From: Chloroflexota bacterium
Lineage (GTDB): Bacteria; Chloroflexota; Anaerolineae; B4-G1
Direction: 5' to 3'
Assembly: GCA_011046405.1 (NCBI GenBank)
Contig: DSAR01000349.1
Span: 1-37,231 of the forward strand
Length of the DNA stretch: 37,231 nt
The translations under genes were made by a program, and so were the position numbers. This document shows, piece by piece, positions 20,923 to 25,278 of this stretch (its first letter is position 1; the number at the start of each line of letters is the position of its first letter). The notes below the pieces were generated by a model. That model worked only from the letters and a program-made list of their open reading frames with translations. It made no database searches and had not been told where the DNA came from.

Positions 20923-20960
20923 AAAACGTAAAGCGTAACAAATATTACGCTTTACGTTTT
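20923..20960. terminator. Symmetric AT-rich hairpin downstream of nrdJ
   Basis: AAAACGTAAAGCGTAA and TTACGCTTTACGTTTT are perfect 16-bp arms around a 6-nt loop. The A- and T-ended arms allow termination in either direction, though the stem itself supplies the T-run. It lies about 180 bp past the nrdJ stop. The 12-bp motif CTGAGCAGTTAC stands just before it at 20905-20916. Confidence 0.5.
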
Positions 20961-21138: not shown

Positions 21139-23601
21139 CTAACACTCGCTGTATCCGCATGAATAGCAGCGCCGGCATCCTTCCGTATTGACCAAAGCGG
21201 CATGGCCGCATTCAGGACACAGATCACCCGCCGGGAACAGGGCCAGTTGTTCGGCTGGGGACTGACCTTCCTCTGGCACCGGATCTATCATCCCCAGGTG
21301 CTCGGCCAATATCTGTGCGATCCCATCGGGAAGGCTGCGGACCCGGTCACGTCCGAATCCCAGGGGGCGTCCGCCGCCAATACCCTTCAATTGCCGCACC
21401 ACCTGTTTCAGTCGTCGCGTGGCCGAAAGAGGTGAAGGAACACGCAGTATCAGCGAGATCAAGCGCCCGATCGCCTCGGCCACTGCGGCTGTATCAGACC
21501 CGGCCTTGCCCACGTTGAGGAAGACCTCGAATGGCTCGCCATCACCGTTTGCGTTGATGGTCGTATATGCGGTACCCAAAGGCGTGTTCAAGCGATAGGT
21601 CTGGCCCGCCAACGCACGCGGCCGAGGGCGCACCTTTATGGAAGCTAGATCCGGGGAATACGGTTGGTGCTGCTTGGCCTTTCGCGTCTCTTCAGTCTCC
21701 AGGACGACTTTTTCCCGCGAGCCGGTCACGTAGACGGTCAACCCCTTGCAACCCAATTTCCAGGCCAATTGGAACGCGTGCGCCACATCGTCAGGCGTCG
21801 CCGACGCTGGGAAATTGATCGTCTTGGAGATCGAGCTATCGACGAATGCCTGTAACGCCGCCTGCATGCGCACGTGCTCCTCGGCGGCGATGTCGCTGGC
21901 GACGACAAAAACTTCCCGTACGGCGGATGGGACGGCGTCGACCGCCTGACAACTGCCCGTCTCCATCACCTCCTGGAAAATCGTCTCTCTCGCTCCCTCG
22001 TCCAGACCGATCTCCTCCAACGCCCGATCGAAGAGCGGACTGATGTAACGTAGCTCCAGGTCCTGACCATTGTCGTTGACGTGGCGCACGTAAGCCAAAG
22101 CAAAGACCGGTTCGCACCCATAGGCCTCACACCCCGAGACGGTCGCGACGGTGCCCGTCGGCGCCACCGTCGTCTGGGCCGCATTCCGGATACCGTGACG
22201 TTTTATGTCCTGCACAATAACGTCCCAATCCAGGGCAGGCCGTCCCCACTCTTCCAGGCGTTCGTAGGGGGTCACAGGACGGGGCGGCCGCCATTGCAGA
22301 TCATTGGGATCATAAACACTGCCCTCAATCGCCGGGAACGGTCCCCGAACCTCCGCCAACGCGATACTGCTTCGCATGACGTGATAGCGGATGTATTCCA
22401 TAACCTGGGCTACCAATTCCTGAGCCTCCTCGCTGCCGTAGCGCACCCGCAGATGGTAGAGTAAGTCACCCAGCCCCATGATACCCAACCCGATCCGCCG
22501 GGTCTGCTGGGCCGCGCGTTTCAGTTGGGGCACTGCCGGGACGTAGGCATTTGCGTCGATCACGTCATCCAAAAAACGGGTCGCTCGCTCGACCGTCTCG
22601 CGTAGTTTTTCCCAATCCACCGAGGCGTGCCCGTTGTGCCCATAGGTCACGTGCCGGGCCAGATTCACCGATCCCAGGCAACAATTCTCATAAGGCAACA
22701 AAAACTGTTCCCCACACGGGTTGCTCGCTTCATATGTGCCCAAATGTGGGCAAGGATTTTCTCGATTGGCCGCGTCCAAGAAGAGCATCCCCGGCTCACC
22801 ATTGCGATGCGCCCCGGCGATGATGTCGTCGAATATCTGTCGCGCCTCGACCGTCTCCCAGACCTCATCATCCTGGGGATTGACCAGCTCGATCATCCCC
22901 TCCTCCGCCACCGCCTGCATAAACACATCTGTCACGCCAACGGAGACATTGAAATTGGTGATCGCGTGTTCGTCGCTCTTGCAATGAATGAATTCACTGA
23001 TGTCGGGATGATCGACGCGCAACACGGCCATGTTGGCGCCCCGCCTGGCCCCGCCCTGGCTGACGATGCCTGAAGCGACGTCGAAAACCTGCATAAAGCC
23101 TACTGGCCCGGTGGCCTGACCGCCACTGCTGCGCACCAACGCGCCCTTGGGACGGAGTCGAGAGAAGGAAAAACCGGTCCCCCCCCCCGTCTGTTGGATC
23201 AACGCCGCATCCCGTAGCGTCTGAAAAATGCCCTCTCCATCGCGACCCATATCGTCAGCGACGGGAAGAACAAAACAAGCAGCCAATTGCCCTAAAGGCG
23301 TCCCAGCTCCGGTGAACGTGGGAGAATTGGGCATAAACTGAAAGCTGGTGATCAAATCATAAAAGCTATCCTCGACCGCCGATACATCCTCACCCCACAC
23401 CTCCTCGACGGCAGCGACGTGACTAACCACGCGATGGAACATCTCCTCTACCGTTTCGACCGGTTGGCCATTCATCCCCCTGCGCAAATAACGACGCTTC
23501 AAAACCGCAAGGGCGTTCTCACTTATCTTGATCCCGGCTCTCTTGGATCTCGCGACCGAAGCCATGGTACTTTTCACAATGTGCCCCATCATTTCCTCCA
23601 T
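21139..23601 (-). CDS. nrdJ: Adenosylcobalamin-dependent (class II) ribonucleotide reductase
   Basis: An 820-residue enzyme that reduces ribonucleotides to deoxyribonucleotides with a B12-generated radical, needing no oxygen and no NrdB partner. Visible: [26 protein letters not shown] (Cys 109, first of the reducing pair), the glycine-rich [16 protein letters not shown], the active-site NPCGE (294-298; Cys 296 is the radical cysteine), [10 protein letters not shown], and the C-terminal Cys-rich tail [26 protein letters not shown], which relays electrons or binds zinc. No ATP-cone is seen at the N-terminus, so allosteric overall-activity control is probably absent. The start may really be Met 4 or Met 5, because GGAGGA lies within codons 1-3 just before them. 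It follows nrdR by 27 bp. Confidence 0.95.
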
Positions 23602-23628: not shown

Positions 23629-24099
23629 CTATGCCTCTTTAGTGCTCTCTTTGCTCTCTTCCAGCAATCGATCAATCTCCGATCGCACTGCCTCCAGATC
23701 CTCTAAACCCAGGTAGACAATAGCATAACGGACGTAAGAAACGGGATCTAGTTCCTTCAACTCTTTGATGGTCAAATCCCCAACGACGTGACTGGGCACC
23801 TCCATCCTGCCCATCTGGCAGATCGCGTGCTCGACGCGATCCACCAATCGCTCCAGATCATCGGCCGAGACCGGGCGCCGGGCGCAAGCCGTCCGTAAAC
23901 CAACGAGTAGCTTCTCGCGACTGAACTCCTCCCTTTGATCGTCCCGTTTGACCACCAGGGGTGTATTCAATACCGGCCGCTCCATCGTACTAAAACGCTG
24001 ATCGCACGATTGACACACCCGTCGCCGGCGCACGCCCCTTTCGTTACGCCGTGTATCGATCACCCGTGTATCGTCGCTATCACAAAAAGGACAACGCAT
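23629..24099 (-). CDS. nrdR: Transcriptional repressor NrdR
   Basis: A 156-residue nucleotide-sensing repressor of ribonucleotide reductase genes. The N-terminal zinc ribbon has MRCPFC (Cys 3, Cys 6) and CQSC (Cys 31, Cys 34); an ATP-cone domain spans about residues 49-139 (VVKRDDQREEFSREKLLVGLRTAC), and the protein ends in an acidic helix. AGGAGGCGAG precedes the ATG. It is first in a two-gene unit with nrdJ, so it very probably controls its own operon. Candidate NrdR boxes and attenuator-like hairpins lie in the 340-nt leader. The length is normal for the family. Confidence 0.96.
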   Translation of the reverse strand: MRCPFCDSDDTRVIDTRRNERGVRRRRVCQSCDQRFSTMERPVLNTPLVVKRDDQREEFSREKLLVGLRTACARRPVSADDLERLVDRVEHAICQMGRMEVPSHVVGDLTIKELKELDPVSYVRYAIVYLGLEDLEAVRSEIDRLLEESKESTKEA

Positions 24100-24187
24100 A
24101 ACACTCGCCTCCTGAATCTACCCGCCCTCTCCTATCCCGGACAGAGGGTGCTTCACACCCGCCAAACGACCCAAACCCCCCACTCTC

Positions 24188-24219
24188 CATCGCAGCAAGG
24201 GACTGGCCTGAGCAGTTAC
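24188..24219. repeat. 32-bp dispersed repeat, copy 1
   Basis: CATCGCAGCAAGGGACTGGC followed by CTGAGCAGTTAC is present here and, as an exact reverse complement, at 30370-30401. The terminal CTGAGCAGTTAC also occurs at 20905-20916. It lies within the leader of nrdR-nrdJ. Confidence 0.8.
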
Positions 24220-24288
24220 GACTGCCAAATTCTTGCTCGTTGTGCAGGAACCTTGTCGGTTAGGCCCTTACTCTCCGGCGTTGCCAAT

Positions 24289-24432
24289 AAAAAAAGGCCC
24301 CCTACATCCTTCAAGCAATGGCGCTTAGCTTAGCGTTCAAACATGGACCTGTCCCAAAGCCATGGGGCATTCAAGCTCTAAATAACACCAGATGTAGGGG
24401 GATAACAAAAAAAAGCCCTATATGTAGGGGGG
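24289..24432 (-). promoter_or_regulatory. nrdR-nrdJ leader with triple GATGTAGGGGG motif: NrdR boxes and/or attenuator
   Basis: Plus-strand GATGTAGGGGG occurs at 24391-24401 and as ATGTAGGGGG at 24422-24431; its inverted copy CCCCCTACATC is at 24298-24308. Read as operators, ACACCAGATGTAGGGG (24385-24400) and GCCCTATATGTAGGGG (24415-24430) each match 11 of 16 positions of the NrdR-box consensus as I recall it, with starts 30 bp apart, close to the helical phasing of paired boxes. Read as RNA on the minus strand, CCCTA-CATA-TAGGG is followed by U8 and CCCCCTACATC...GATGTAGGGGG by CC and U7, two terminator-like hairpins with alternative pairing. Both readings may hold. Confidence 0.6.
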
Positions 24433-24449
24433 TCGTTAAGGTGGTGCAG

Positions 24450-24478
24450 ATTATAGCATAGCCTACAACAATGCACAA
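24450..24478 (-). promoter_or_regulatory. Promoter of nrdR-nrdJ
   Basis: On the minus strand TTGTGC (24478-24473), 17 bp, TATAAT (24455-24450), with an extended -10 TGC. The start of transcription would be near 24443, just upstream of the first candidate NrdR box. Confidence 0.75.
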
Positions 24479-24543
24479 GCGCTTTCAAGAAGATTATCTT
24501 AAAAAGCAAGGGGAAATAATCGTAGCGCCATAAACGCCATCAA

Positions 24544-24572
24544 TTGACAATTGTCTCACTTTAGAGTACATT
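24544..24572 (+). promoter_or_regulatory. Promoter of the small GAF protein gene
   Basis: TTGACA (24544-24549), 17 bp, TACATT (24567-24572). The -35 lies in the inverted repeat CAATTG-A-CAATTG (24541-24553), which could be an operator. The leader is about 88 nt. Confidence 0.55.
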
Positions 24573-24666: not shown

Positions 24667-25278
24667 ATGTCAGCAACCAACAATCAATTTATCCGTTTTC
24701 TCCAACAGGAATGCTCCCGGTTCAAGGACGAAAACCGACTGCTGCTGGAAGAGGTGCGCGCGCTAAGACGTTATCTCAATGCCCTGCAGCATCTACAGAA
24801 AACTGTCCAGCATTTTACGCCGGAACAGGACATTCTATCCCTGCTCGATGATACGCTCAAATGCGCCCTCGTTCTATTAGACGCTATCGATGGTTCGCTG
24901 ATGTTGATTGATGAGGAAACGGACGAGCTGGTCTTTGTGCTCGTGCACGGCACAGCCAGCGACAGCCTGGTCGGCCATCGCTTCGACCGCCGCCAGGGCA
25001 TTGCCGGATGGGTAGCCGAAAATATAGAGCCGGCCATCAGCGATAACGTCCGCACCGATGCACGCTTCTTACCAACCGTCGATGAGCAGGTCGGTTTCGA
25101 GACCCGTTCCCTGGTCGCGGTGCCATTGGCTGCCCGGGGACGCACACTCGGCGTCATCGAGGTCGTCAACAAACGCTCTGAACGGCCTTTCACCGAAGAA
25201 GACGCCAACCTGCTTTCGATTCTGGCCACTCTGGCTGCCTCGGCCCTTGACTACGCGGCTTCTGCTATGGAAGAATGA
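24667..25278 (+). CDS. GAF domain protein with N-terminal coiled coil
   Basis: A 203-residue cytoplasmic protein behind AAAGGAGG. Residues 1-48 form a charged helix likely to be a coiled coil (FLQQECSRFKDENRLLLEEVRALRRYLNAL), and a single GAF domain fills about 55-198 (GSLMLIDEETDELVFV, GIAGWVAENIEPAISDNV, SLVAVPLAARGRTLGVIEVVNK, FTEEDANLLSILATLAASAL). It resembles the GAF domains of the 1338-residue kinase in this window but has no output domain. It probably acts as a ligand-sensing adaptor, or in a partner complex; the ligand is unknown. It lies 60 bp upstream of tgt in the same direction. Confidence 0.85.
   Translation: MSATNNQFIRFLQQECSRFKDENRLLLEEVRALRRYLNALQHLQKTVQHFTPEQDILSLLDDTLKCALVLLDAIDGSLMLIDEETDELVFVLVHGTASDSLVGHRFDRRQGIAGWVAENIEPAISDNVRTDARFLPTVDEQVGFETRSLVAVPLAARGRTLGVIEVVNKRSERPFTEEDANLLSILATLAASALDYAASAMEE

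Follow-up and report, generated by a model that had tools for sequence, protein, structure and literature searches.

NrdR boxes are 16-bp palindromes with an essential C and an essential G, and the NrdR tetramer loaded with dATP and ATP bends the DNA to which it binds (PMC9110341, PMC12051234), kinking it by about 90 degrees per box (PMC9110341). Binding in vitro is good at spacers of 14-17 bp between the boxes (PMC12051234), and the residues that determine DNA specificity in S. coelicolor NrdR are D15 and R17 (PMC9110341). Here we describe the nrdR-nrdJ leader in a stretch of 37,231 nucleotides from a Chloroflexota bacterium (class Anaerolineae; contig DSAR01000349.1), hereafter referred to as the window.

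The closest described system is the S. coelicolor nrdRJ promoter (PMC9110341), with which the window shares the gene order nrdR-nrdJ, two 16-bp boxes placed about three turns apart, the conserved C and G and autoregulation, which is a prediction in the window. The two differ in that the S. coelicolor boxes are positioned upstream of the start site and overlap it, whereas both boxes of the window lie 3' of the -10 element; in addition, the arms of the window's boxes are richer in C and G and are accompanied by a U tract. Placement 3' of the -10 element has a precedent in boxes 1 and 2 of E. coli nrdAB (PMC12176259), where the operator likewise sits in the downstream promoter region; the 15-bp spacer of that operator can be listed as a further likeness, the window's own spacer being 14 bp. 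E. coli nrdAB differs in that its enzyme is of class Ia, that nrdR lies outside the operon and that the consensus is closer to ACACWATATATWGTGT.

The nrdR-nrdJ operon and its predicted operator

The nrdR gene (23629..24099, minus strand) was recognized by TIGR00244 at 152.5 bits, against a cut-off of 124.65, and is followed after 27 bp by nrdJ (21139..23601, minus strand; TIGR02504, 664.8 bits), which encodes an adenosylcobalamin-dependent ribonucleotide reductase (RNR). A 17-bp stem with a T-rich tail at 20923..20960 (minus strand) is the likely terminator of the operon. PF02867 has a single match in the 4.8-Mb genome, so that no RNR large subunit other than that of nrdJ was found, and nrdR is also followed by nrdJ in many of those relatives with contigs that extend far enough. 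The promoter has a perfect -10 element, TATAAT (24450..24455, minus strand), and 17 nt upstream of it a weak -35-like hexamer, TTGTGC (24473..24478, minus strand), that matches TTGACA in part; a perfect or near TATAAT occurs at the equivalent place in nearly all relatives within the order. Divergent from this promoter, a promoter-like TTGACA-17-TACATT was seen at 24544-24572 for a GAF-domain-like gene at 24667-25278.

The earlier note on this DNA had described two direct copies of one string, 30 bp apart, and a third, inverted copy, and an exact and one-mismatch string search of the window located all three at the positions claimed. The string GATGTAGGGGG occurs exactly at 24391-24401 (plus strand) and at 24298-24308 (minus strand), and its one-mismatch copy, TATGTAGGGGG, at 24421-24431 (plus strand). 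The window holds no further match with at most one mismatch, and 3 of 100 shuffled sequences reached three matches. Read on the nrdR strand, the leader runs CCCCTACATATAGGGC-TTTTTTTT-GTTATC-CCCCTACATCTGGTGT ... GATGTAGGGGGCC-TTTTTTT.

The two direct copies fall within two NrdR boxes, of which box 1, CCCCTACATATAGGGC (24415..24430, minus strand), scored 17.0 bits and box 2, CCCCTACATCTGGTGT (24385..24400, minus strand), 20.5 bits on the profile. The pair begins 19 nt 3' of TATAAT, upstream of the operon, and the two 16-bp boxes are separated by 14 bp, so that their centres lie 30 bp, or about three helical turns, apart. Both boxes are palindromic and have the conserved C4 and G13 and the central AT, and the spacer falls within the 14-17 bp range of operators, in which spacers about one turn longer also occur. 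The RNR operon that the pair precedes belongs to a genome with its own nrdR gene, whose protein has both D15 and R17. On a pair profile built from the leaders of 20 relatives, with the window left out, the window's pair scored 37.5 bits, compared with 15.4 bits for the best of 30 random Markov windows. Within the window's genome the pair pattern was found only at nrdR. Other box-like sites in the genome were rejected as candidates; they are single, show no excess over the control, as expected from chance, and adjoin a transposase remnant and a cas1-like gene.

Taken together, these results argue strongly that the two direct copies are one predicted NrdR operator of the known kind, through which nrdR-nrdJ would be autoregulated, and we hold this prediction with high confidence. 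Counting against it are the placement of the transcription start from the -10 element only, the -35 hexamer being poor, a spacer that at 14 bp falls one base short of that in most relatives, and the leaders without a pair that are described below. We infer that when dATP is plentiful the window's NrdR would bind both boxes as a tetramer and bend the DNA, that the bound protein would block initiation or early elongation at the nrdR-nrdJ promoter, and that NrdR would thereby repress both nrdR and the single ribonucleotide reductase of the cell.

Conservation of the box pair in the order and class

Leaders of nrdR were taken from the window's family, order and class. The box pair is present at the equivalent place in 37 other leaders from the order and class, nearly all of them with a 15-bp spacer, and sits 5-23 nt 3' of a -10-like element that within the order is usually a perfect TATAAT. 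A second, independent set gave the pair in 47 of 56 class genomes, with spacers of 15 bp (37 genomes), 14 bp (9) and 13 bp (1); the remaining nine test leaders, as well as several leaders from the order, were without a pair at the threshold used. A lack of conservation in relatives, which the earlier note had named as grounds for abandoning its proposal, is thus not what was observed, since the pair is kept in position, sequence and helical phase across the class. These data extend the predicted NrdR operator to a bacterial class for which the literature searched yielded no test, and the class-wide placement 3' of the -10 element, together with the nearly fixed 15-bp spacer, predicts repression by a roadblock or at the open complex. 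With regard to the protein, a scan of genome contigs returned distant NrdR proteins only, with no close relatives among them. An NrdR-like protein with 45% identity was also seen at L051:2501-2944 in a metagenome-assembled genome labelled as an archaeon, and this may be contamination.

The distance from box 1 to the nrdR ATG is 331 nt in the window, compared with 50-100 nt in most relatives. Part of this unusual length comes from half of a dispersed inverted repeat (24146..24225, minus strand) that has been inserted between the operator and nrdR; this segment has 58 matches in its own genome, and the other loci have both arms. The presence of part of a dispersed repeat in the leader, and the more than 30 dispersed copies of a different repeat with a box-like pair in one relative (G006, described below), raise the question of whether the entire block is itself a mobile repeat that merely resembles an operator, an outcome that the earlier note had likewise named as fatal to its proposal. 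The dispersed part lies outside the operator, however, and positions 24226-24480 have only weak partial matches elsewhere in the genome. The pair occurs once in the window's genome, at nrdR, and at the orthologous position in relatives; this single occurrence and orthologous position refute the mobile-repeat reading of the block, which we consider extremely improbable.

Box 1 and the U tract that follows it

The earlier note had further proposed that operator and attenuator are combined in one sequence. Whereas the operator half of that proposal is strongly supported by the data above, the attenuator half is limited to the window's lineage, and neither the U tracts nor the third copy belongs to the conserved mechanism. 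In a dual control of this kind the operator would also act as an attenuator in the transcribed leader: the box 1 hairpin and its U8 tail would stop or pause the polymerase some 35-40 nt into the transcript, and a second hairpin, formed by box 2 and the third copy and followed by U7, would stop the polymerases that escape. We regard such dual control as doubtful, and the evidence on it comes from the hairpins, from the relatives and from searches for known RNA families.

Box 1 can form a 5-bp hairpin on the transcript and is followed directly on its 3' side, in the spacer between the boxes, by a T8 tract (24407..24414, minus strand) that would supply the U tail of the first terminator-like hairpin; the first copy, on the nrdR strand, thus lies within CCCTACATATAGGGC-U8 (24429-24407). 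This arrangement fits the simple terminator pattern of a GC hairpin followed by a U tract in a transcribed leader, and of the five A/T runs of at least 7 nt in the 37 kb window the U8 and U7 tails account for two, which favors dual control. Within the family, 5 of 10 leaders, the window's included, have a box 1 hairpin of -5 to -12 kcal/mol and 7-8 T among the 8 nt that follow it (G003, G004, G006 and G007 each have 7 of 8), and the bases that flank the kept tract are saturated in these five genomes, although the five were picked for having the tract and the choice is therefore circular. Additionally, in the first set of 38 leaders, the 8 nt after a box held 5.1 T where the hairpin was strong, compared with 2.6 where it was weak (p = 2e-6), in an exploratory association among related rows drawn mostly from the window's order. 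The T excess after strong boxes in this set exceeded that at the mirror position, namely A before the box (p = 0.0006, with 16-mer folding), and A before strong boxes was itself mildly raised.

The association did not replicate. With a criterion fixed beforehand, 47 independent leaders of the class gave 2.95 T compared with 2.41 (p = 0.086), and there were 5 terminator-like boxes on the nrdR strand compared with 4 on the other. The U-tract feature is consequently at best particular to the window's order.

The tract may also serve the DNA rather than the transcript, in that an A tract in the spacer could add curvature or twist that aids bending by NrdR and may offset the short 14-bp spacer. The kink of about 90 degrees that NrdR imposes at each box (PMC9110341) and the mildly raised A before strong boxes in the first set are consistent with such a role. 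A symmetric operator, however, would not predict the observed bias of the first-set link, which favors the transcript side over the mirror side, and we consider this explanation rather unlikely. The U tract after box 1 may accordingly be a terminator, a pause site or an effect of the spacer A tract on the DNA.

The third copy and the second hairpin

The third, inverted copy, GATGTAGGGGG (24298..24308, minus strand), can pair with the 5' half of box 2, and more weakly with that of box 1, around an 82-nt loop. In the second hairpin the second copy, in box 2, pairs with it over 11-12 bp, and CC and a T7 tract (24289..24295, minus strand) come next, the latter giving a U7 tail (24295-24289) to a terminator-like structure. 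Both of the alternative terminator-like hairpins with U8 and U7 tails that the earlier note described can thus be folded, but the mutually exclusive antiterminator and the signal that would make them a switch were not found: folding and inspection of the leader revealed neither an antiterminator nor a sensor, and the two long hairpins share one 3' arm and therefore provide no switch in themselves. The fold energy of the leader is also ordinary (z = -1.0). The window resembles intrinsic-terminator attenuators in having a GC hairpin and then a U tract in its 5' leader and differs from them in lacking, as far as was found, an antiterminator, a sensor or a conserved leader structure, and in a second hairpin with an 82-nt loop that is unique to the window's genome.

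The earlier note had mentioned an RNA motif named after nrdJ, and this is not supported, because no Rfam family matches: the window returned no family at gathering and permissive thresholds, with a best chance match of E = 2.5 among unrelated families, and the loci of nine relatives had no match at the gathering threshold. The leader has in common with the nrdJ RNA motif and with the cobalamin riboswitches of Rfam a position upstream of a B12-dependent RNR gene, without a family match. No description of an nrdJ RNA motif was found in the literature search.

An 11-nt inverted match to the operator in the downstream leader arose in 7 of 2000 shuffled sequences, and such a match with a T tract in 0 of 2000, which speaks for dual control and against a third copy without function. 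Neither the third copy nor the leader itself, however, was found in any of the 149 other genomes of the class that were searched. Several facts suggest that the copy serves no function, being either an additional NrdR box that has decayed or an inverted match that arose by chance: only its right half fits a box, only 11 bases match, it occurs in the window's genome alone, and the surrounding leader has taken in a dispersed repeat and is under little constraint. We give this explanation about an even chance. The third copy is more likely non-functional than functional, without certainty. A 19-codon ATG frame (24311..24370, minus strand) fills the loop of the second hairpin and stops 2 nt short of the third copy; it is probably there by chance, and as a leader peptide it was set aside for lack of conservation.

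On these data a dual operator and attenuator function is possible in the window's lineage. Its fullest form is that in the window's order the NrdR palindrome is also a terminator stem, so that one sequence would both repress initiation and limit read-through of the only RNR, and that the third copy of the window would add a second terminator reusing box 2 as its 5' arm; we judge this version unlikely. Were the terminator reading true, one set of bases would act at two levels, and leaders from the order, in which the hairpin is found at box 1, at box 2 or at neither box, would form a natural series for testing it. In the leaders of family f3 (L056, L058, L059 and L062) the perfect hairpin is formed by box 2 and not by box 1, and the right arm of f3 box 2, TAGGGG, resembles the ribosome-binding region that follows, with a possible effect on translation at the level of the RNA.

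A transposon-like repeat with an NrdR-box-like pair

In the relative G006, more than 30 near-identical copies of a dispersed 153-bp element (L113:917-1069) carry a pair of NrdR-box-like sites, spaced 31 bp apart, between the terminal inverted repeats CTGGAGTCTGGC...GCCAGACTCCAG. Diverged relatives of the element (L118 and L142-L149), 75-83% identical, occur in several other families of the class with the box pair in the same register. Across these relatives conservation is 97% at the core box positions but 64% in the spacer, and none of 3000 column permutations reached the shared pair score. The repeat could be an NrdR-responsive mobile repeat, a decoy array or a set of look-alike transposase sites. 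The literature search found no link between NrdR and such repeats. The element could matter more than the leader itself, as it would tie a mobile repeat to a nucleotide sensor or give the cell many decoy sites. Two further repeat families were seen to carry box-like pairs at operator spacing, with four copies in G030 (L121, L122) and three in G021 (L119, L120).
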